From a bacterium (GTDB taxonomy: Bacteria > Patescibacteriota > Microgenomatia > UBA1406 > GWC2-37-13), in contig JAQBTX010000003.1 in assembly GCA_027624795.1 (NCBI GenBank), forward strand, positions 1 through 39,544: 39,544 bases of DNA. Reading direction: 5' to 3'. Position 1 is the first letter of the stretch. Every line of letters starts with the position of its first letter. Position numbers and translations under genes: made by a program. Below the pieces are notes generated by a model. It was not told where the DNA came from, ran no database searches, and saw only the letters and a program-made list of their open reading frames with translations. This document shows positions 77-37,795 of this stretch, piece after piece.

Positions 77-985
77 TCATAATCGAATTGATCCATACGG
101 AATCTTTGCCAACATTTCCACCACCCATACAATAAATTCCAACAATGGGTATACGAACCAAGAAAGCACAAATCCAAACTGCCAATGAACTAATCCCGTC
201 ACGATCGTGAGCATTCCCAGTATCATAATGGGAGCTATCATCCATGCCACCAATATATTTGCAATCGGTGAAATTAATGAGATCTGTCGAAAGTACCAGA
301 AGATGAGGGGGAGAGTAAATACTTGTGCGGAAAGAGATATACGAAGTTCTTCGAGAAAATAAGATTTAAGAATCATGAATTTGTCATCCTGAGGAAGACT
401 GTCATCCTGAGCGTTAGCGAAGGATCCATGTATTGTTGTATTCTGGATTCTTCGGTCGTCACCACGTCTGACGTGGTTCCTACTCAGAATGACAGTCTTT
501 TCTTCATGTTCAATACTTCCAAACAACACAATTCCCAGAGTAGCAGCAAACGATAATTGGAATGAAATACTCTGCAACCATTCGAAATTTATAATAAGCA
601 TGATTATTCCCGAAAGGAACAATGAATATAATGCCAAAGTCTTTCGTCCGTATAACACAGCTCCCAGCGATATAATTCCCATTATTGCAGCGCGGATTAT
701 GGGAGGTTCTGCTCCAACAAATAGAACAAACAAAATAACAATCACGATCGTACATAATAATGCCCATTTTCTATTTATAAAATAAACGAGCGTATTTAAT
801 ACAATCGCACTGAGCATGGTTATATTCATACCAGAAAGGACTACTATATGTATCAACCCTACTTGTTTAAGTTCGTTATAAAAGGTCTGAGTCACAAAAA
901 GATCCCGCCCGAGAAGTATTCCATTCAAAAGCGATGCATGAGGTTCAGGGTAGTAGGAATTTACAAGCGAGGTGAGTATGTCCAT
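77..985 (-). CDS. comEC: ComEC/Rec2-like competence membrane protein (competence domain only)
   Basis: Translation has the ComEC core 'NGILLGRD...GLIHIVVLSGMNITML...' and many TM segments. The N-terminal OB region and C-terminal metallo-beta-lactamase domain are not visible. Start placed at MDILTSL because the upstream part of the ORF is repeat sequence. Confidence 0.82.
   Translation of the reverse strand: MDILTSLVNSYYPEPHASLLNGILLGRDLFVTQTFYNELKQVGLIHIVVLSGMNITMLSAIVLNTLVYFINRKWALLCTIVIVILFVLFVGAEPPIIRAAIMGIISLGAVLYGRKTLALYSLFLSGIIMLIINFEWLQSISFQLSFAATLGIVLFGSIEHEEKTVILSRNHVRRGDDRRIQNTTIHGSFANAQDDSLPQDDKFMILKSYFLEELRISLSAQVFTLPLIFWYFRQISLISPIANILVAWMIAPIMILGMLTIVTGLVHWQFGFVLSWFVYPLLEFIVWVVEMLAKIPYGSIRL
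378..497. repeat. Family A dispersed palindromic repeat (TGTCATCCTGAG...GGATTCTTCGGTC...CTCAGAATGACAG) inside comEC
   Basis: Same motifs as repeats at 1-65, 3087-3206, 23788-23910 and others. Encodes 'VILSRNHVRRGDDRRIQNTTIHGSFANAQDDSLPQDDKF' in frame. Confidence 0.85.
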
Positions 986-987
986 AC

Positions 988-1075
988 AAAAAATCCTAAA
1001 TCCTAAATCCTTGCCTTGCCGGCAGGCAGGCGAAATCCTAAACAATGCTCAAATATCAAAAGATCAAAATTCAAT
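988..1075. repeat. Family B repeat, 3' flank of the four-helix-bundle gene; contains nested GC-rich palindrome CCTTGCCGGCAGGCAGG
   Basis: 'aaatcctaaatcctaaatcc...gaaatcctaaacaatgctcaaatatcaaaagatcaaaattcaatta' closely matches 26328-26392 inside leuS. Confidence 0.8.
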
Positions 1076-1078
1076 TAC

Positions 1079-1438
1079 CTATTTACATTTTTCTATTATT
1101 GCTCCAAATATTTTCGTCAACTCAATTGATTCTTGTATAAGATTGGTTTGCACTGGTGTGTTTTGATTGTTTGGATTACTTAATCTAAGCCATAAGCCGC
1201 TTTCCTTTGCTTCTTTACGACATATTTTTATCCTCATAACAAAATCTTTTTTACTTAACGATTCATTAGCTTCGATATAATTAGCTGCCACAGAACCAGA
1301 AGATCTTATAAGTTGTTTTCCATCTTCAATTCCAGCGATGGTCTTAGGTAATTGTTGTATATAAATTCGACATTTATTTGCAAAGATATATGTTCTTTGT
1401 TCTAAGTCATAGTGTTTGGTTTTTTGAATTGTATTCAT
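1079..1438 (-). CDS. Four-helix-bundle protein (23S rRNA intervening-sequence / S23 family)
   Basis: Translation 'QLPKTIAGIEDGKQLIRSSGSVAANYIEANESLSKKDFVMRIKICRKEAKESGLWLRL' is the hallmark of this family. Confidence 0.9.
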   Translation of the reverse strand: MNTIQKTKHYDLEQRTYIFANKCRIYIQQLPKTIAGIEDGKQLIRSSGSVAANYIEANESLSKKDFVMRIKICRKEAKESGLWLRLSNPNNQNTPVQTNLIQESIELTKIFGAIIEKCK

Positions 1439-1440
1439 TT

Positions 1441-1490
1441 GAATTTATTTAGAGTTTAGAGTTTAGGGTTTAGGATTTAGAGTTTAATAA
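1441..1490. repeat. Family B repeat, 5' flank of the four-helix-bundle gene, inverted relative to 988-1075
   Basis: 'ttatttagagtttagagtttagggtttaggatttagagttta' is the reverse-complement style of the AAATCCTAAACTCTAAATCC unit. Confidence 0.75.
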
Positions 1491-2148
1491 GTTCTCTCAA
1501 ACTCTCAAACGTACTCTGATTCATAACTTTCTTATTTACTAGCTCGTCTATTGTGGTATAAGGTCTACTATCAAGTATCTTCTGGGCAGTCACCAGTCCA
1601 ATTCCTGGTAATGTATCAAGTTCTTGCAGGCTTGCATCATTTATGGAGATGGTTAAACCACCCTCTTCAGGAAGGGGAGCTTTATCATTATTTAGGTATA
1701 AGGGTTGGAGATATTCAAGCACGCGATTTTGTTCATAAAAGGTACCATTTTGGATATCCCACACATAGGGAATATATATTTTTTCCTGGTCACCCACGAG
1801 TCGAGCTAGGTTGTAATTGCGTCCTACATAGAAGTGGTCAGCCATGCTGGTAAGACCACCTGCCATATCTATCAGATCCTTCATGTTTGTTCCCGGTGCA
1901 ACTAAATAGACATCGGGGTAGAGTACCGCGCCAGATACCTCGACAGAAAGGGTAAGATCCTCAATTTCATCGTGCTCTTCAACGTCTTTTGATGGAGACT
2001 GTATTGCTGTTGCGCCTTGAACTTCTGGTTCAGATGCGTGGCTTCGGGGGATAAACGAAATAATTGAGATTAAGATTGCCAAGGAAATAAGCCCTGTTTC
2101 TACTGGATACCTTCGTAATAAAGCAAGAATGGGTTCGACATATCTCAT
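1477..2148 (-). CDS. comEA: ComEA-like protein (TM + SLBB + helix-hairpin-helix)
   Basis: SLBB-like 'EVSGAVLYPDVYLVAPGTNMKDLIDMAGGL' and HhH 'INDASLQELDTLPGIGLVTAQKILDSRPYTTIDELV'. Confidence 0.85.
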   Translation of the reverse strand: MRYVEPILALLRRYPVETGLISLAILISIISFIPRSHASEPEVQGATAIQSPSKDVEEHDEIEDLTLSVEVSGAVLYPDVYLVAPGTNMKDLIDMAGGLTSMADHFYVGRNYNLARLVGDQEKIYIPYVWDIQNGTFYEQNRVLEYLQPLYLNNDKAPLPEEGGLTISINDASLQELDTLPGIGLVTAQKILDSRPYTTIDELVNKKVMNQSTFESLRELIKL

Positions 2149-2183
2149 TACATATTCATTGTAGCAAGAGAACAAAAAGATAG

Positions 2184-3934: not shown

Positions 3935-4016
3935 GTCATCCTGAGGCATCTTTTGTCATCCCGAACTCGTTTCGGGATCTTTCTATCAAAGATGCTGAAA
4001 TAAATTCAGCATGACA
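3935..4016. repeat. Family A dispersed repeat
   Basis: 'tcatcctgag...tcatcccgaactcgtttcgggatc...gatgctgaaataaattcagcatgaca'. Confidence 0.85.
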
Positions 4017-4039
4017 ATATATTGAATGACATGAAAAAA

Positions 4040-5267: not shown

Positions 5268-5398
5268 CAAATCCTAAATCCTAAACTCTAAATCCTAAAT
5301 AATACTCAAAATACTAAATTTAAATATTCAAAACAGTTTAATGATTTGAGCATTAGAATTTAGAATTTGTTTAGAATTTAGATATTAGAGCTTATTAT
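5268..5398. repeat. Family B element with inverted ends (gene-less) between nusG and rplK
   Basis: 'aaatcctaaatcctaaactctaaatcctaaataatactcaaaatac...gatttgagcattagaatttagaatttgtttagaatttagatattagagc'. Confidence 0.75.
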
Positions 5399-5399
5399 T

Positions 5400-5948
5400 T
5401 TACAACTTTTTCACTTGTAAAAAATCTAATTCTACCGATGTCTCACGATCAAACATTGAAACTAACGCGTGAACTTTACCCTTTTCTTCATCTATAGCTG
5501 AAACGGTGCCCAAAAAGTCAGTGAATGGGCCTTCGGTTATCTTTATTGCCTCGCCTACATTAAATGCTCTCTTAAACTTAGGTTGTTCTTGCTCAACAAA
5601 TTTCATGATCGCTCCTATCTCTTTGTCAGATATAGGGGTAGGTTTTGTACCAGCACCGATGAATCCCGTTACTCCTTCAGTGGTGCGAACTACCAACCAA
5701 GACTGATCATCAAGGATCATTTTTACAAAAATATAGCCTGAAAAGACTTTTTCTTTTTGTTTCGTTTTTTTACCCTTTTTAATGACGATTACATCTCGGG
5801 TAGGCACAATGCTTTCAAATATCTTATCTTCAACTCCTAAGCTTTGTATACGTTGTTGAAGGTTATTTTGAACTCGGTTTTCATGCCCCGTCTGAGAATG
5901 CAGCACGTACCATTTGCCTAATTGTTTTTTTTCATCTGAATCTGCCAT
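5400..5948 (-). CDS. nusG: Transcription termination/antitermination protein NusG
   Basis: 'GKWYVLHSQTGHENRVQNNLQQRI...SGYIFVKMILDDQSWLVVRTTEGVTGFIG...'. Confidence 0.95.
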   Translation of the reverse strand: MADSDEKKQLGKWYVLHSQTGHENRVQNNLQQRIQSLGVEDKIFESIVPTRDVIVIKKGKKTKQKEKVFSGYIFVKMILDDQSWLVVRTTEGVTGFIGAGTKPTPISDKEIGAIMKFVEQEQPKFKRAFNVGEAIKITEGPFTDFLGTVSAIDEEKGKVHALVSMFDRETSVELDFLQVKKL

Positions 5949-7562: not shown

Positions 7563-7695
7563 TAAATCCAAAATCCTAAACTCTAAATCCTAAATAAATA
7601 ATAAACTCAAATTATCAAATGTTAAAACATGAGCACTATTTAGATTTAAGATTTTGATCATTGTTTCGTACTTAGCGCTTAGTATTTAGAGCTTT
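7563..7695. repeat. Family B element with inverted ends (gene-less)
   Basis: 'aatcctaaactctaaatcctaaat...ctcaaattatcaaatgtt...gatttaagattttgatcattg...tagtatttagagc'. Confidence 0.7.
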
Positions 7696-9177: not shown

Positions 9178-9235
9178 ACTGTTTATTATACAGTGAAGAA
9201 CGTTGTGATAAAAGTCCATTATTATGAACCCATGT

Positions 9236-9279
9236 CTTATAGTAAAAGGGTCTGTCCCGAAAATCGGGACAGACCCTAA
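9236..9279. repeat. REP-like element upstream of RAYT; two half-copies inverted to give a perfect 14-bp hairpin
   Basis: 'tatagtaaaAGGGTCTGTCCCGAaaaTCGGGACAGACCCTaat'. Shares 'atagtaaaagggtctgtcccga' with 10039-10083. Confidence 0.9.
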
Positions 9280-9321: not shown

Positions 9322-10023
9322 TTGAATAAATGTATGCCATGTAAAAATAGGGTCAAACAACTTGCAGAAGGAGCGTACTATCATGCATATAATCGGGGTT
9401 ACCATCGTCAGCAGGTATTTCTCAATGAACACGATTATCATACCTTTATACATATTCTTAAAAAATACCTCGACCCAGATTTTCGTGAAACTAAATTCCT
9501 TCCCAATGGAGAAGCTGTTCAAATAGCCGTAAATAAGCCTTTGTATGAAAAAGTGGAATTGCACTCCTATTGTCTCATGCCTAATCACTTCCATCTTTTA
9601 GTAAAACAGATTTCTAAAGATGGTATGTCTCGACTAATCAATGTAGTATGTTCTCAATATTCGACCTACTTTAATAATAAATACGAACGTGAAGGGACGA
9701 TATGGCAGGGGACCTATAAGGCAGTAATAGTGAAAACAGAAGAGCAGTATCTTCATTTAAGCAGATATATTCACCTGAATCCATTTCCTATTTTACATAA
9801 ACTAGAAGAATATCCCTACTCGAGCTATCCAACGTTTATAGGAAAAAAGAAATTTTCCCATTGGTTTAAACCAGAAGGTATTTTGCATTCCTTTACTTCG
9901 AAATATAAAGACACCGGAGCATCATATCAGAGATTTGTTGAAGGATACCACCAACTTCACGAAGACGAGCGTAGGAAAGAGGAAGAATTAATCCAGCCGC
10001 TCATATTAGATGAAAAAACATGA
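9322..10023 (+). CDS. REP-associated tyrosine transposase (RAYT; Y1/IS200-like, HUH family)
   Basis: 'GAYYHAYNRGYHRQQVFL...LHSYCLMPNHFHLLVKQ...REGTIWQGTYKAVIVKTEEQYLHLSRYIHLNP'. HUH signature HFH and conserved Y/HLNP region. Start may be the TTG at 9322 or the ATG at 9334. Confidence 0.93.
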   Translation: MNKCMPCKNRVKQLAEGAYYHAYNRGYHRQQVFLNEHDYHTFIHILKKYLDPDFRETKFLPNGEAVQIAVNKPLYEKVELHSYCLMPNHFHLLVKQISKDGMSRLINVVCSQYSTYFNNKYEREGTIWQGTYKAVIVKTEEQYLHLSRYIHLNPFPILHKLEEYPYSSYPTFIGKKKFSHWFKPEGILHSFTSKYKDTGASYQRFVEGYHQLHEDERRKEEELIQPLILDEKT

Positions 10024-10038
10024 GAATAAAACAAAAAG

Positions 10039-10083
10039 TCTCATAGTAAAAGGGTCTGTCCCGATTACTATAGACATTTTTGT
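10039..10083 (+). repeat. REP-like hairpin element downstream of RAYT
   Basis: 'tctcATAGTAAaaGGGtctgtCCCgaTTACTATagacatttttgt'. Exact 45-nt match in reverse orientation at 22542-22586. Confidence 0.95.
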
Positions 10084-20438: not shown

Positions 20439-22493
20439 TTAGCTCAATTTACTTACAATCGCAGTTGCATCTATTTCCTCAAACCTCAACAGTTCTTCTG
20501 GTTTGCCTGAACGGGGGATTTTATTCACGGCAAGATGCGTTAATTTGATAATGTTACTGGATTCCCGATCGGAGTCGGGAATGACATTAGTTAATGCGTG
20601 TCGAACAGCATCGCCTAAACCGCCATCGGGGTAATGATCTTCTACCACTACCACGTGACCTGTTCTCTGAGCATATTTTTTGATCGTGTTACCATCTAAT
20701 GGTTTGATACTGTATGCATCAATAACTGCTATGTTTGTACCATTTTTTTTGAGCTCTTTTTGTGCTTTGAGTGCTTCATGAACGGTGATCCCTGCGGCAA
20801 TAACTACAGCTATGTCATCTTCATGTTCAACCAGAACTTTTGATCCTCCGATGGGGAATTGTTCATCAGATTGGTAAAGCGATTCAGTTTTTGCTCGAGT
20901 TAATCGCAGGTACGAAAGTCCCTCGTGGGTTCGCAGTTCATTTACCAGTTTTACCGTAGATACAGGATCAGATGGGTACAGAACTACTGCGTGTAGGAGG
21001 GCACGCATCATAGCCAAATCTTCCAGAGCCATTTGTGAAGCCCCATCTTCCCCAATAGAAACACCCGCATGTGAGCCAACAATGGTCATATTGGGATTTG
21101 CATATTGACTCATTCGTATTTGATCATAAGCACGGGCCAAGAATGCAGCAAAACTTGATGCAAAGGGAATGAGTCCAATCTTACTCATGCCCAGTGCTAC
21201 TGACACCATGTTTTGCTCGGCAATAAACATCTCAAAGAATCGATCTGGAGCAACTTCTTTCATGGCTTCTGCAAATGTTGAATTAGATGTCTCGGCATCA
21301 AGAACAACTACGCGCTCGTCTGTTGCTATGAGCTTAAGTGCGGCTCCATAAGCTTCACGAGTGGCAGTGGGTTTAACAAAAGTTGGAACATCCCTCCCCC
21401 CGCTAAGCGGGGTGCTCACACGTCCAACGTGCCTATCGCCTTCATAAGGGAGATCTGTATGAGTTCCCCCTTCAGGCCCGCCTGCCGGCGAGGCAGGAAG
21501 GGGGTGCCCCGAAGGGGTGGGGGATGTTACATCTATCTTTTCTGGTTTATTTACTTCTCCTCGCACATTTAAATCAATATCTCCCAGTTCTTTGAGAGCG
21601 GTTTCCATGACATCTTTTGGCAATGCTTTTCCGTGCCAGCCGTCTTTGTCTTCCACTGCAGAAATACCAGCACCCTTTTTGGTTTTGGCAATGATCATGG
21701 TTGGTTTATCTGATTCCAGATTTGTTAGAGCTTGTTGCACCTCATCTATATTGTTCCCATGTTCGATCATGATAGTTTTCCAGCCAAATGCCTCAACTCG
21801 TTTCTGATAGGTTTCAATATCCCATCCAAGCATTGTTTCTCCTCGTTGTCCTAGACGATTCACATCAAGGATTCCAATCAGATTATTGAGTTTATAGTGT
21901 GATGCCACTTGCATAGCCTCATATACTTGACCTTCGGCAAACTCTGAATCTCCCATCAGTACGTACACCATAGGTGTACGGAAGCTCGAAGCACGAATAT
22001 CTAAATCCGAAACAATTATTGAATTTTCTAAATTCGAATTTTTGTCATTTGAATTTGTTTCGAGTTTAGAGTTTAGAGCTTCGGATTTACTAAGTTGCAG
22101 CTTGATCCCCAGTGCCATGCCAAGTCCCACAGAAAGTCCTTGACCCAGTGAGCCAGTGGCAACATCTACCCATGGAAGATCTGTGGTTGGGTGACCTTCA
22201 AATCGTGAGTCAAATTTACGAAGGGTGAGAAGTTCATCATATTCTACCCAGCCAGCAGCTCGGTACATGGCGTAGAGTAGGGGAGCGGCATGACCTTTAG
22301 ATAATACCATACGGTCGTTAAAAATATACTTTGGATCCTTTTCATCGTATGTAAAGTGTCCATCAAACCAAAGTGCAGTCATAAGTTCTACCGCAGAAAG
22401 TGAGCTGGTAGGGTGACCAGTTCCCGCAGCCGTGGTCATTTGCAGTATGTCATGACGAATGAGTTTAGTGAGTGCTTTGAGTTCAGATTTCAT
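20439..22493 (-). CDS. tkt: Transketolase with repeat-derived in-frame insertions
   Basis: 'GHPTSSLSAVELMTALWFDG', 'GHAAPLLYAMYRAAG', 'GSLGQGLSVGLGMALG', 'GDSEFAEGQVYEAM', 'FIAEQNMVSVALGMSK'. Confidence 0.95.
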   Translation of the reverse strand: MKSELKALTKLIRHDILQMTTAAGTGHPTSSLSAVELMTALWFDGHFTYDEKDPKYIFNDRMVLSKGHAAPLLYAMYRAAGWVEYDELLTLRKFDSRFEGHPTTDLPWVDVATGSLGQGLSVGLGMALGIKLQLSKSEALNSKLETNSNDKNSNLENSIIVSDLDIRASSFRTPMVYVLMGDSEFAEGQVYEAMQVASHYKLNNLIGILDVNRLGQRGETMLGWDIETYQKRVEAFGWKTIMIEHGNNIDEVQQALTNLESDKPTMIIAKTKKGAGISAVEDKDGWHGKALPKDVMETALKELGDIDLNVRGEVNKPEKIDVTSPTPSGHPLPASPAGGPEGGTHTDLPYEGDRHVGRVSTPLSGGRDVPTFVKPTATREAYGAALKLIATDERVVVLDAETSNSTFAEAMKEVAPDRFFEMFIAEQNMVSVALGMSKIGLIPFASSFAAFLARAYDQIRMSQYANPNMTIVGSHAGVSIGEDGASQMALEDLAMMRALLHAVVLYPSDPVSTVKLVNELRTHEGLSYLRLTRAKTESLYQSDEQFPIGGSKVLVEHEDDIAVVIAAGITVHEALKAQKELKKNGTNIAVIDAYSIKPLDGNTIKKYAQRTGHVVVVEDHYPDGGLGDAVRHALTNVIPDSDRESSNIIKLTHLAVNKIPRSGKPEELLRFEEIDATAIVSKLS
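20558..20592. repeat. Family A-type palindrome inside tkt
   Basis: 'ggattcccgatcggagtcgggaatgacat', encodes 'VIPDSDRESSN'. Confidence 0.75.
21388..21535. repeat. Family C repeat inside tkt
   Basis: 'ccctccccccgctaagcggggtgctcac...ccttcataagggagatc...gttcccccttcaggcccgcctgccggcgaggcaggaagggggtgccccgaaggggtgggggatg'; related to 27500-27685 in leuS. Confidence 0.8.
21985..22092. repeat. Family B-related palindromic insertion inside tkt
   Basis: Nearly identical to 23002-23118 in tyrS. Termini 'cgaagc...aaatccgaaacaa' / 'ttgtttcgag...gcttcgga' are inverted. Confidence 0.9.
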
Positions 22494-22541: not shown

Positions 22542-22586
22542 ACAAAAATGTCTATAGTAATCGGGACAGACCCTTTTACTATGAGA
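22542..22586 (-). repeat. Solo REP-like hairpin element between tyrS stop and tkt
   Basis: 45-nt exact reverse-complement match to 10039-10083. Confidence 0.95.
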
Positions 22587-22588
22587 TG

Positions 22589-23770
22589 TTATCGGGTCAC
22601 CTGAAAAGATCTGACTTGTTCAAGAAGTTTTTTTGCCTCTTCATTTTCTTCAAAATGTTTTCGTACTGGCTCAAGTAAATTGTCTAAAATATCTATCACA
22701 GCCGATTTCAAATCCATTGGATGAAGTGCTTTGGAAGCATAATCTTGTTCCAATTCTTGGTACGATTTATAGGTTGCTGCACCGCCAAACTTATCCGGAC
22801 GTGAAATTTGAATTTCATTTTGTGTTTCGAAAATGATGTATTTGCAATATTCAAGAATCGGATTCTCTTCCACTATTCCTTCCGGTGCCCATGCTTTCCC
22901 AATTTTTCGTTTGATATCTTCTTTGGTATCGGTCATAAATATGGCAGAGTCAGGATTGGATTTGGACATTTTAATGGCAATGACACGGCTTATCGCATCA
23001 TCCTTTAAATCCGAAGCACGAATATCTAAATCCGAAACAATGTCCGAATTTTTTAAATTCGAATTTTGATCATTTATATTTGTTTCGAGTTTCGAGTTTG
23101 ATGCTTCGAGTTTTTGCGGAGGAGTGAGGCCCTGTAACATATGGTGACTCACCACTACTGGTTTCCAAAATCCAAGTTGAGGTCCAATCTCTCTGGCTAA
23201 CATGTTAACTTTCCGCTGATCCATCCCTAGTTGTGTTATTTTAGCTCCAAGGGTAAAAATATCTGCAACCTGCATACAAGAATATATGATATGAGCGCCA
23301 GTGAGTTTATCCATTGATTCATCTCGTCCCATCATCTCTGCAGTGCGGACAAATCGTTTGAGTGCATTTGACTTACCCACTTGAAGCACAAGCTTCCAGT
23401 AATCCGGGTCTTTGACCAAATCTGAGGCCCAAACAAATTCAACATTCGACAGATCCATGCCGCATGCCTTCCAAACTTCAATGAAATACTTTCCCACGGT
23501 TTTGATCTTTTCCAAATCCCCTCCCATTTTATTGTTTGCATAGGCGTGCCAGTCAGCCACAAACATTTTGAATGATATGCCGGCTTTCGTCATCTTATTC
23601 ACATTCACCGCTTTCAAGATTCCTTGAGCAATATGTATTTGGCCTGAAGGTTCAAAGCCATCATAGGCTATAAGTTTTTCTTCAGATGAGAGAAGTGTTT
23701 TGAGGTCTTCTTGAGTGGTGACTTCTTCTCCAACTTGGTTAATAAGATCCATACGCTCGTCGAGTGTCAT
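22589..23770 (-). CDS. tyrS: Tyrosyl-tRNA synthetase, archaeal/eukaryotic-like, with in-frame repeat insertion
   Basis: 'YDGFEPSGQIHIAQGILKAVNVNKMTKAG', 'WHAYANNKMGGDLEKIK', 'AIKMSKSNPDSAIFMTDTKEDIKRKIGKAW'. Confidence 0.88.
   Translation of the reverse strand: MTLDERMDLINQVGEEVTTQEDLKTLLSSEEKLIAYDGFEPSGQIHIAQGILKAVNVNKMTKAGISFKMFVADWHAYANNKMGGDLEKIKTVGKYFIEVWKACGMDLSNVEFVWASDLVKDPDYWKLVLQVGKSNALKRFVRTAEMMGRDESMDKLTGAHIIYSCMQVADIFTLGAKITQLGMDQRKVNMLAREIGPQLGFWKPVVVSHHMLQGLTPPQKLEASNSKLETNINDQNSNLKNSDIVSDLDIRASDLKDDAISRVIAIKMSKSNPDSAIFMTDTKEDIKRKIGKAWAPEGIVEENPILEYCKYIIFETQNEIQISRPDKFGGAATYKSYQELEQDYASKALHPMDLKSAVIDILDNLLEPVRKHFEENEEAKKLLEQVRSFQVTR
23002..23118. repeat. Family B-related palindromic insertion inside tyrS
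   Basis: 'aaatccgaagcacgaatatctaaatccgaaacaa...ttgtttcgagtttcgagtttgatgcttcgag'; encodes 'KLEASNSKLETNINDQNSNLKNSDIVSDLDIRASDLK'. Confidence 0.9.
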
Positions 23771-23787
23771 AGAGATAGTATAACAAA

Positions 23788-23910
23788 TACCACTTGTCAT
23801 GCTGAACTTGTTTCAGCATCTTTTATAGATAGATCCTGAACTAAATTCAGGATGACAATGCATGGATTCTTCGGTCGCTTCGCTCGCTCAGTATGACAAA
23901 TTATCATATA
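23788..23910. repeat. Family A dispersed repeat (intergenic)
   Basis: 'cttgtcatgctgaacttgtttcagcatc...gatcctgaactaaattcaggatgacaatgcatggattcttcggtcgcttcgctcgctcagtatgacaaa'. Confidence 0.85.
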
Positions 23911-25441: not shown

Positions 25442-28153
25442 ATGTCAAAGTATTTCCCCGAACAATTTGAAGAAAAATGGGCTCAGCAGTGGGTTGCAGA
25501 TGGGTTGTTTCAAAAGACTTTTGATGTAGAAGGTCAAACCTTAGAAAATAAAATGTATCTTCTCTATGCGTTTGCCTACCCATCGGGAAGCGGGCTGCAT
25601 GTGGGGCATGTAGAACCACTTACCGCACTTGACATTATGGCTCGGTATTACCGATCTATAGGTAAAAAGGTATTTTTTCCGGTTGGTTGGGACGCCTTTG
25701 GGGTACCTGCAGAAAACTATGCCATAAAAACCGGGGTTCCCCCCGTACAAACAACCAAAGAGTCTATTGCTACTTTTTCACGGCAAATAAAGCGCATTGG
25801 CATATCATACGATTGGGGAGCAGAGCTGGCAACCTGTCACCCCGGATATTATAAATGGACTCAATGGCTCTTTTTACAGCTTTATAAAAAAGGTCTTGCA
25901 TATAAAAAAGATGCACCAGTCAATTGGTGCCCGAGCTGTCAAACCGTACTTGCCAATGAACAGGTAGTTGAAGGTAAGTGTGAACGCTGCGGAACTGATG
26001 TAATTCAAAAAAAGATGGATCAATGGTTTTTCAAAATTACCCAGTACAAAGATGAGCTCATTTCAGGACTTGACCAAGTAGATTGGCCCAAAGCCACCAA
26101 ACAACAACAGATTAACTGGATTGGGAAGAGTGAAGGCGCTCTTATAAAGTTTGAGCTGTGTCATTCTGATCCCGACGTTATGTCGGGAGAAGAATCCAGA
26201 AAAGACATGGATCCTTCGGTTTCACCTCAGGATGACACTGGAGAAATTAAAGTTTTTACGACCGCGCATGATACCATATATGGCGCGACATTTTTGGTCG
26301 TCGCGCCAGAACATGAGATTATCAATGAAATCCTAAATCCCAAATCCGAAATCCTAAATAATACTCAAATATCAAATGATCAAATTCAATTAATCGAACA
26401 ATACATTAATCAAGCCAAGTCTAAAACAGAAGAGGAACGATTGATTAATAAAGAAAAAACCGGTGTTTTTTCAGGTCTTTATGCTTTTAATCCAGCTTCA
26501 CAAAAAGAAATTCCTATTTGGATTGCAGACTATGTACTAGCTCAATATGGTACGGGCGCTATAATGGCTGTACCAGGGAGTGATGAGCGTGACAATCAGT
26601 TTGCTAAGAAATTTGAGCTCCCCATCACCTATGTCGCTCAAAAAAATGGTAGTTCTGACAAAGATAAATTCATCAGTTTTTCAAATGAGATTAAAGTAAA
26701 TCCATCTCAATATATGCTAATAAACTCAGGTGAATTTAATGGACAGGACTTTACAGAAGGACGTGAAGGCATCATGAAAAAGCTAGAAGACATGGGTGTT
26801 GCTAAACGAGAAACTACGTACAAACTCCGTGATTGGCTTATATCCCGACAACGTTATTGGGGAGCTCCGATACCCATTGTTTATGACCCAGAAGGAAAAG
26901 CTCATATGGTCAAAGAAGAACATTTACCGTGGATGTTACCTACGGACGTAGATTTTAAACCAACCGGCGAAAGTCCTTTACGACTATCGAAAGAATTTAA
27001 AGAGCGAGTAGAGAAGTTGTATGGGAAAGGGTGGACCCCAGAATATGACACCATGGATACATTTGTGGATTCATCATGGTATTACCTTCGCTACACTGAT
27101 CCTCGAAATGAGAATGAATTTGCACGGACGGATGCCATGAAAAATTGGATGCCGGCAGATTTCTATATGATTGGTCCCGAGCACATTGTACTTCATCTTT
27201 TGTACAGTCGATTTTTTACCAAATTTTTACGTGATGAAGGATATTTGAGCGTGGATGAACCATTTCAAAAAATGCGTCATCAAGGCATGATTCTTGGACC
27301 AGATCACCGAAAGATGAGTAAAAGTAAGGGGAATGTCATAAATCCAGATGACGTGATGAAAGAGTATGGCGCTGACACCTTACGGTTATATGAAATGTTT
27401 TTAGGTCCTATAGATCAAGATAAGCCATGGAGTGTAGAAAGTGTTCAGGGGCAATATAGGTTTTTAAAACGGGCGTGGAGTTTGTTTGAGTCATTACCAC
27501 CCCGTCCTCGACAGGAAGTCGAGTCCACCCCTCCTTATAAAGGCGGGGAGTCAAAATTTGAGAAAGCTCTCCTCCTTCCTAAGGAGGAGTATTCCCGACG
27601 TAACGTCGGAGACCCCCTTTCTGAAGGGGGAACTAAGAAAGATCTCCCTTTTGAAGGGAGTACCCGAAGGGGGAGGGATGTTTCTCAACTTCTTCATAAA
27701 ACTATAAAGAAAGTGGGATCAGATATAGAACAGCTCAAATTTAATACTGCTATTTCGGCAATGATGGAGCTCCTCAACAAGATTGAGGCAGAATTAAGAA
27801 TGAAGAATTACGAATTACGAATTGAAGATGCCAAGAAGTTTTTAAAGATTCTTTCACCTTTTGCGCCCTTTATGACCGAAGAGATATGGCGTAATCAATT
27901 AGGTGAAAAAGAATCGATTCATACAGCACCATGGCCAGAAGTTGACGAATCACTATTGGTAGAATCTACCATAACGATCCCTGTTCAGGTGAACGGAAAA
28001 GTACGCGGACGGGTAGTAATTGGAATAGGCGACGATGAAGAAAGTGTGGTTGCTGCAGCAATGCAAGATGAAACCATCATTGCGTTTATCCCCGAGAAAA
28101 AATATAAGAAAATTATATATGTGAAGGGGAAGATCTTAAACATCATTGTCTAA
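25442..28153 (+). CDS. leuS: Leucyl-tRNA synthetase (bacterial type) with four repeat-derived insertions
   Basis: 'YPSGSGLHVGHVEPLTALDIMARY', 'WCPSCQTVLANEQVVEGKCERCG', 'MAVPGSDERDNQFA', 'KMSKSKGNVINPDDVM'. Confidence 0.96.
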   Translation: MSKYFPEQFEEKWAQQWVADGLFQKTFDVEGQTLENKMYLLYAFAYPSGSGLHVGHVEPLTALDIMARYYRSIGKKVFFPVGWDAFGVPAENYAIKTGVPPVQTTKESIATFSRQIKRIGISYDWGAELATCHPGYYKWTQWLFLQLYKKGLAYKKDAPVNWCPSCQTVLANEQVVEGKCERCGTDVIQKKMDQWFFKITQYKDELISGLDQVDWPKATKQQQINWIGKSEGALIKFELCHSDPDVMSGEESRKDMDPSVSPQDDTGEIKVFTTAHDTIYGATFLVVAPEHEIINEILNPKSEILNNTQISNDQIQLIEQYINQAKSKTEEERLINKEKTGVFSGLYAFNPASQKEIPIWIADYVLAQYGTGAIMAVPGSDERDNQFAKKFELPITYVAQKNGSSDKDKFISFSNEIKVNPSQYMLINSGEFNGQDFTEGREGIMKKLEDMGVAKRETTYKLRDWLISRQRYWGAPIPIVYDPEGKAHMVKEEHLPWMLPTDVDFKPTGESPLRLSKEFKERVEKLYGKGWTPEYDTMDTFVDSSWYYLRYTDPRNENEFARTDAMKNWMPADFYMIGPEHIVLHLLYSRFFTKFLRDEGYLSVDEPFQKMRHQGMILGPDHRKMSKSKGNVINPDDVMKEYGADTLRLYEMFLGPIDQDKPWSVESVQGQYRFLKRAWSLFESLPPRPRQEVESTPPYKGGESKFEKALLLPKEEYSRRNVGDPLSEGGTKKDLPFEGSTRRGRDVSQLLHKTIKKVGSDIEQLKFNTAISAMMELLNKIEAELRMKNYELRIEDAKKFLKILSPFAPFMTEEIWRNQLGEKESIHTAPWPEVDESLLVESTITIPVQVNGKVRGRVVIGIGDDEESVVAAAMQDETIIAFIPEKKYKKIIYVKGKILNIIV
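26157..26245. repeat. Family A repeat inside leuS
   Basis: 'tgtcattctgatcccgacgttatgtcgggagaagaatcc...gatccttcggtttcacctcaggatgacac'; encodes 'CHSDPDVMSGEESRKDMDPSVSPQDDTG'. Confidence 0.9.
26325..26395. repeat. Family B repeat inside leuS
   Basis: 'gaaatcctaaatcccaaatccgaaatcctaaataatactcaaatatcaaatgatcaaattcaatta'; encodes 'EILNPKSEILNNTQISNDQIQL'. Confidence 0.88.
27500..27685. repeat. Family C repeat inside leuS
   Basis: 'ccccgtcctcgacaggaagtcgagtccacccctccttataaaggcggggagtc...ctccttcctaaggaggagtattcccgacgtaacgtcggagaccccctttctgaagggggaac...'; several hairpins. Confidence 0.85.
27792..27829. repeat. Short repeat inside leuS encoding 'ELRMKNYELRIED'
   Basis: 'gaattaagaatgaagaattacgaattacgaattgaag' has an internal near-tandem 'gaattacgaattacgaatt'; absent from the canonical LeuRS pattern. 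Confidence 0.55.
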
Positions 28154-28194: not shown

Positions 28195-28256
28195 ATTGTC
28201 ATTCCCGTGAAAACGGGAATCCAGACTGGATCCCGCATCAAGTGCGGGATGACAGA
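28195..28256. repeat. Family A dispersed repeat (intergenic)
   Basis: 'tgtcattcccgtgaaaacgggaatccagactggatcccgcatcaagtgcgggatgacag', two hairpins. Confidence 0.85.
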
Positions 28257-31907: not shown

Positions 31908-32000
31908 GTCATACTCACCACGATATGATTTACTGTCATCCTCGCGGAGGCGGGGATCCATAAAGAGAGCCTGGATCCCGCATCAAGTGCGGGATGACAA
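31908..32000. repeat. Family A dispersed repeat (intergenic)
   Basis: 'tgtcatcctcgcggaggcggggatcc...tggatcccgcatcaagtgcgggatgacaag'. Confidence 0.85.
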
Positions 32001-36394: not shown

Positions 36395-36433
36395 TGGTTA
36401 TCTATTTTATCATAAGTGGTGGATATACTCTGT

Positions 36434-36466
36434 ATATAGTAATCGGGGTTACCCCTTTTACTATAA
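36434..36466. repeat. Variant REP-like hairpin
   Basis: 'TATAGTAAtcGGGGttaCCCCttTTACTATA': same outer arms as 22552-22582, different but complementary inner stem. Confidence 0.85.
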
Positions 36467-37740: not shown

Positions 37741-37763
37741 GTGTACATGCTATCACGAAAATG

Positions 37764-37795
37764 ATAGATCCTGAAATGAATTCAGGATGACAAAG
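37764..37795. repeat. Family A short palindrome
   Basis: 'gatcctgaaatgaattcaggatgaca', matches the intergenic unit near 23838. Confidence 0.75.

Follow-up and report, generated by a model that had tools for sequence, protein, structure and literature searches.

Among the systems closest to the locus described here are the intervening sequences (IVSs) of 23S rRNA that carry S23p, which have complementary ends and are excised by RNase III (PMC4990558). In Coxiella, the 23S IVS possesses a terminal stem of 28 bp, with tandem GACAGAT heptamers upstream of its ORF (PMC4990558). A separate line of work deals with heptanucleotide repeats, represented by the STRR of cyanobacteria, GGGAATC in Xanthomonas, TAACTGA in Beggiatoaceae and the heptamers of Geobacter (sections of PMC4692102, PMC4679880 and PMC2700814), and the sections of PMC4692102 used here report no association of these repeats with mobile elements. 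A search confined to an open-access library yielded no paper that connects heptamer arms with S23 genes at large. To our knowledge, S23 (four-helix-bundle) proteins are encoded by "hypothetical" genes that are very common and lack a known function, and no catalytic motif is known in the protein. The origin of the 23S IVSs is a question standing since 1990.

The S23 gene between comEA and comEC

The stretch of DNA analysed here (39,544 nucleotides, from a genome of the Patescibacteria) will be referred to as the window. Near its beginning, the original prediction placed a four-helix-bundle gene between comEA and comEC, bounded by inverted repeats, and this was confirmed: the product matches TIGR02436 and PF05635, and arrays of the TTTAGRN type stand in inverted orientation at its two sides. 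The locus is made of the following features:

77-985 (-), comEC-like gene, downstream of the insertion (PF03772, E 4.5e-47; ATG at 985)
986-1075 (no strand), downstream arm in the sense of the gene: AAATCCT heptamers at 990-1011, a GCCGGCAGGCAGGC palindrome and an inner part, AAATCCTAAACAATGCTCAAATATCAAAAGATCAAAATTCAATTA; from sequence, complementary to the other arm
1079-1438 (-), S23 / four-helix-bundle (23S rRNA-IVP) gene, 119 aa (TIGR02436, PF05635, AlphaFold model)
1439-1489 (no strand), upstream arm in the sense of the gene: TTTAGAG/TTTAGGG/TTTAGGA heptamer array; from sequence, complementary to the other arm
1477-2175 (-), comEA-like gene upstream of the insertion, of the SLBB + HHH type (HHH_3 and SLBB matches; stop at 1477-1479)

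In profile searches, the product of 1079-1438(-) matched TIGR02436 with E 7.8e-17 and PF05635 with E 5.8e-10, the bit scores of both exceeding the curated cut-offs (61.5 vs 24 and 39.8 vs 33.8, respectively). Its AlphaFold model consists of four helices (mean pLDDT 93), and a PDB search with this model gave as top matches 2rld and 2gsc, both of the S23 family, with TM values of about 0.74-0.80 for most of their chains; further matches include Avd of the diversity-generating retroelements (DGRs; 4dwl, 8ub7). Of these, 2gsc is the Xanthomonas S23 structure. A Xanthomonas S23 relative with a solved structure is a homopentamer, according to work cited in the section of PMC4990558 used here.

The downstream arm adjoins the ATG of comEC, and the comEA stop codon falls inside the upstream arm and is supplied at the edge of the element. 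The two flanks are complementary at 16 of 17 nt in their best pairing, a value reached by one of 2000 dinucleotide shuffles (0.0005). A small, unrelated palindrome of the GCCTTGCCGGCAGGCAGGC / GCCGGCAGGCAGGC / GCCTGCCGGCAGGCAGGC type is embedded in the left arm at 1013-1031, and a GCCTGCCGGCAGGCAGGC-type palindrome is also present inside a heptamer arm at another locus of the same genome (L007). The stretch at approximately 986-1489 is very probably a copy of a small mobile element of wide occurrence (roughly 450-500 bp), made only of an S23 gene and its two arms; towards the best explanation as a whole, with the mechanism envisaged below, we lean slightly.

No rRNA was found in the window or at 20 S23 loci. 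Since none of these 20 loci lies in rRNA, the unit is better assigned to a wider class, of which the rRNA IVSs may be a special case, than to the IVS group itself. The proposal of an IVS-like layout outside rRNA was sustained as regards the complementary ends around the S23 ORF and the location (no tested copy in rRNA), while the ends turned out to be heptamer arrays and not fixed ends.

Cognate arms and S23 divergence

The architecture was examined in 205 S23 genes, not independent of each other and in many cases from genomes that are fragmented MAGs: 114 came from the family of the window (Patescibacteria), whose member G012 is a Roizmanbacteria genome and where TIGR02436 genes occur in 60 of 72 genomes (up to ten in each), and 91 from other genomes and viral contigs, including Bacteroidota, Clostridia, Fibrobacter, Acidobacteria, Proteobacteria, Omnitrophota, KSB1, Atribacterota and others. 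When each upstream flank was compared with the reverse complement of its own downstream flank, the mean score was 16.4 for the first set and 16.2 for the second (16.3 overall), and permuting the partners 10,000 times never brought the mean above 9.5 and 8.9, respectively. Control genes (n=126) gave a mean of 8.0 (S23 vs controls, p about 1e-37), and a score of at least 12 was attained by 78% of the S23 genes vs 1.6% of these controls; the remaining S23 genes, about 22%, score below 12 and have no clear arms. Both flanks are periodic, most often with a lag of 7 and sometimes of 8 or 9: lag 7 was the best one in 67 and 74 of the 114 genes for the two flanks and in 52 and 58 of the 91, compared with 10 of 48 controls.

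The repeated unit varies from gene to gene and agrees between left and right within a gene (TTTAGGA, TAGATGC, GTAGTTG, AAGTATT, GAATATA, AGACCTG, among others, with AGTCAGA and GGGAGTA in Nostoc). A fixed end sequence for the whole S23 family was accordingly rejected, the arms differing between elements and the architecture alone being common. The expectation that the family shares inverted ends was in this way upheld for most members, in the form of cognate arrays of about 7 nt and not of a single end sequence. Pairs of S23 genes use the same unit in 53% of cases at 60-70% protein identity, in 92% at 70-90% and in 1.5% or less below 40%; a rank-correlation Mantel test on the full set of pairs gave a weak correlation (r 0.08, about the same as the highest value in 2000 permutations), its signal residing in pairs above 60% identity. 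Because the sharing of the unit tracks S23 identity, gene and arms are passed on jointly as a single element, the ends of which diverge along with the protein. Two near-identical copies (L236 and L237) differ by 14 nt in the length of the array. A motif like TTTTGTAGGTTATAAGCGGTTGACTAAAAT was also observed just outside the arrays, upstream of S23, at five loci from different genomes (L047, L131, L137, L139 and L140), and it might be a promoter or another repeat.

Empty sites, unrelated sites and gene-less derivatives

The S23 unit is exactly bounded, has cognate inverted ends, and is present or absent at the DNA level. The empty sites anticipated by the original prediction exist both at the window locus and in cyanobacterial plasmids with 97% identical flanks. 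Three congeners (G060, G061 and G063) have an empty comEA-comEC junction; in the window genome and G062 it is filled, with distantly related S23 genes and different arms at the same comEA stop; G063 has a different S23 unit, placed at the stop codon of comEC. A Trichormus variabilis plasmid (site 1) carries an S23 unit in the arrangement AAAAAGTAAT-[unit]-GTAATTAACAAATAA, with a 5-bp target duplication, GTAAT, while four plasmids whose flanks are 97% identical read AAAAAGTAATTAACAAATAA instead. The piece missing from these plasmids is exactly the S23-plus-arms unit, and 50-kb pairwise comparisons at site 1 show a clean gain of the size of the unit. Within a single strain, Nostoc ATCC 53789, a homologous plasmid junction has the unit on one plasmid and lacks it on another. 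Further filled/empty pairs were found in an nrd operon, with S23 in antisense orientation, and in a type III-B CRISPR operon between cas10 and cmr3 (L274, 1992-2348), filled in Picosynechococcus PCC 7003 and without the unit in PCC 7002.

Target-site duplications, also part of the initial proposal, were seen in part: the 5-bp duplication of site 1 is the only clean one. A second candidate, TTCTA at plasmid site 4, was ruled out, as the ATTCTGA unit of the right arm itself accounts for it, and the flanks of the other sites are too diverged for a duplication to be recognised. One 451-bp element, 90% identical, is located at two unrelated sites in sister genomes, and in several further pairs the homology is confined to the S23 unit. 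The element is usually inserted at the stop codon of the upstream gene, which lies at the start of the arm in 122 of 171 cases (median -2.5 nt), and it was outside rRNA in every locus tested; both neighbours are in the same sense in 102 of the 171, and some positions are common to genomes of different genera (L041, L055 and L056). Phage records gave no match, viral contigs did, and PADLOC gave no consistent match. At one Nostoc plasmid locus (L254, 1049-1660), the S23 gene is itself interrupted by an insertion with heptamer-like CAGAATTC/GAATTCTG ends.

The window also contains copies of the arms that lack the gene:

5268-5401 (no strand), gene-less hairpin of the same heptamer family as the window arms (repeat families D1/D2 and I8; fold)
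7563-7694 (no strand), gene-less hairpin of the same heptamer family as the window arms (repeat families; fold)
21987-22089 (no strand), gene-less hairpin whose right arm is 84% identical to the right flank of the gene copy, E 4e-11 (repeats, fold)
23006-23114 (no strand), gene-less hairpin, 85% identical to 21987-22089, with an arm like that of the S23 element L137 from another genus (repeats, fold)
26327-26392 (+), single arm in frame in leuS, in the region of the editing domain (91% identity to 1031-1077)

Besides the heptamers, the gene-less copies retain the inner flank of the gene copy, which is not repetitive (D1, D2). Resemblance to the arms of L137 is seen in two of the hairpins, and the protein of this unit is the nearest relative of the window S23 among those sampled. 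The claim that the 3' flank of the gene is nearly the same as an insertion in leuS was correct (26347-26392 is 91% identical to 1031-1077, E 2.3e-11), and alignment with the leuS of the congener G063, which is 84% identical, shows that the arm amounts to about 16 extra in-frame amino acids. The window genome has 31 matches to the array pattern, the highest number among the 72 genomes of the family. Regarding the idea that gene-less arrays are confined to genomes with the gene, TTTAGRN arrays were found in 17 of 60 S23-bearing genomes and in none of the 12 S23-less ones (p 0.03), in agreement with it. An S23 gene with the matching arm unit was present in 2 of 16 genomes with TTTAGRN arrays (Fisher p 0.20; S23 genes sampled in part only), and the idea that each of these arrays has its own S23 gene with an identical unit was dropped as not significant.

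Other repeats coexist in the window. A second palindromic repeat in leuS, unrelated to the first (GTCATTCTGA..TCAGGATGACA type, 26156-26240), lies in frame and adds about 23 residues that are absent from three congeners, so the LeuRS of the window has taken up two different repeat families. A Y1_Tnp (RAYT-like) gene at 9322-10023(+) is flanked by copies of TAGTAAAAGGGTCTGTCCCGATTACTATAGAC (9234-9260 and 10038-10083), with further copies at 22542-22586, where it is a perfect 45-nt inverted copy, and 36431-36464; this seems to be a separate REP/RAYT unit that has no relation to the S23 arms. REP-like intergenic palindromes of the GGATCCTGAA..TTCAGGATGACA type occur in many copies (3953-4017, 23794-23858, 28223-28254, 31968-32000 and 37763-37794).

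Considering the empty sites, the 451-bp element at unrelated sites and the complementary flanks, S23-plus-arms is very probably a mobile element. A mobile-element class built on the four-helix protein, as first put forward, gains inverted ends, empty sites, copies at unrelated sites and gene-less derivatives, and loses the notion of fixed ends.

Mobility of the unit and comparison with known systems

S23 is the only gene of the unit and its only element-specific protein; profile searches detected no known recombinase or transposase inside it. The term "autonomous" that had been applied to the unit was consequently not supported, given also that a single target duplication is clean and that most genomes with TTTAGRN arrays have no sampled S23 gene of the same unit. 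Since the arms differ between elements yet match within each, the specificity is unlikely to stem from one fixed transposase acting from outside, and S23 might itself recognise the heptamer arms, a proposal that we regard as evenly balanced. In the mechanism envisaged, an S23 oligomer would bind its own two arms at the DNA level, contacting several heptamers, and pair the two ends of the element; a staggered cut at the target would then insert the unit (5-bp duplication at the one clean site), with catalysis provided by S23 or by a host enzyme, and the arms would drift through the gain and loss of heptamers, so that protein and unit would diversify together. In its broadest version, which should be taken as a tentative and rather doubtful whole, S23 would be a new kind of DNA mobility protein, that is, a four-helix-bundle oligomer without a recognisable recombinase domain reading a fast-evolving heptamer code at the ends of its own gene; it would have given rise to the heptanucleotide repeats of cyanobacteria, Xanthomonas, Geobacter and Beggiatoaceae as gene-less derivatives, and the 23S rRNA IVSs would be copies landed in rRNA.

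Alternatively, S23-plus-arms could be a passenger, or MITE-like unit, moved in trans by an unrelated host transposase (Y1/RAYT or DDE), with S23 having another role. Y1_Tnp genes are indeed present in all 16 S23-bearing genomes examined (a set restricted to S23-bearing genomes), one of them in the window, and the gene-less hairpins have spread too. However, the arms are wholly different between elements, so no single transposase could read all of them by sequence, and site 1 has a target duplication, which is not expected of Y1/HUH insertion; this explanation is therefore considered unlikely.

The nature of the pairing bears on a second alternative, an RNA-based element similar to a 23S IVS or a DGR accessory, in which a hairpin RNA with S23 would be reverse-transcribed and inserted. 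The mismatches in the arms show no excess of G.U over A.C (239 vs 264, p 0.28), which indicates that the pairing is not strand-specific, as RNA-stem selection would make it, and argues against selection on an RNA hairpin. Likewise, no RVT_1 reverse transcriptase was found in the window genome and eight other S23-bearing genomes, and a reverse transcriptase partner was discarded (0 of 9). These two results favour DNA rather than RNA, and some units are, besides, antisense to host operons. Hence, in spite of the resemblance of the S23 fold to Avd (4dwl, 8ub7; PMC10053308) and of the precedent of the Coxiella 23S IVS, with its S23p, 28-bp terminal stem, tandem GACAGAT heptamers and RNase III excision (PMC4990558), an RNA route seems quite improbable. 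Finally, a non-mobile regulatory cassette, in which S23 and its own attenuator-like hairpin would be inherited vertically and empty sites would arise by gene loss, would fit the location of most copies between co-oriented genes (102 of 171) and the positions common to different genera (L041, L055, L056), but is hardly credible in view of the exact-unit difference and target duplication in 97%-identical plasmids, of one element at unrelated sites and of the two distantly related S23 genes that two congeners carry at the same comEA stop.

Under the preferred reading, that of a mobile element made of S23 and its arms, one origin could account for this common "hypothetical protein" as well as for many 7-base repeats that lack an explanation. 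S23 elements offer a source for such heptanucleotide repeats, and equally for insertions that lie in frame in essential genes, as in leuS; the function of S23 and the origin of the 23S IVSs both become testable through a unit whose ends are cognate and for which empty sites and gene-less descendants exist.

As for known systems, the DGR accessory protein Avd (4dwl, 8ub7) has a four-helix-bundle fold related to S23, but S23 units lack a reverse transcriptase, a template and a variable repeat. REP/RAYT systems (REPtrons) and MITEs also combine small palindromic gene-less units with one gene-bearing form; in contrast, the S23 unit has no Y1 or DDE transposase and its ends are not fixed in sequence. 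In the P6b region of the Nostoc tRNA-Leu intron, as described in the section of PMC4476775 used here, 7-nt complementary repeat motifs of alternative classes likewise form a stem, although these stems lie inside a group I intron without an S23 gene. The heptanucleotide repeats and STRR are, like the S23 arms, degenerate tandem 7-nt units, intergenic and near stop or start codons, and those of Xanthomonas often occur as inverted pairs; unlike the arms, they are not tied to S23 and are treated as regulatory or simple repeats in the sections of PMC4692102, PMC4679880 and PMC2700814 used here. The 23S IVSs of Coxiella and Leptospira (PMC4990558) share with the units described here an S23 ORF enclosed by complementary ends, a unit length of roughly 430-450 nt and, in Coxiella, tandem heptamers just 5' of the ORF whose copy number changes between strains (PMC4990558), whereas the present units lie between or in protein genes, have heptamer arrays on both sides and show empty sites at the DNA level.
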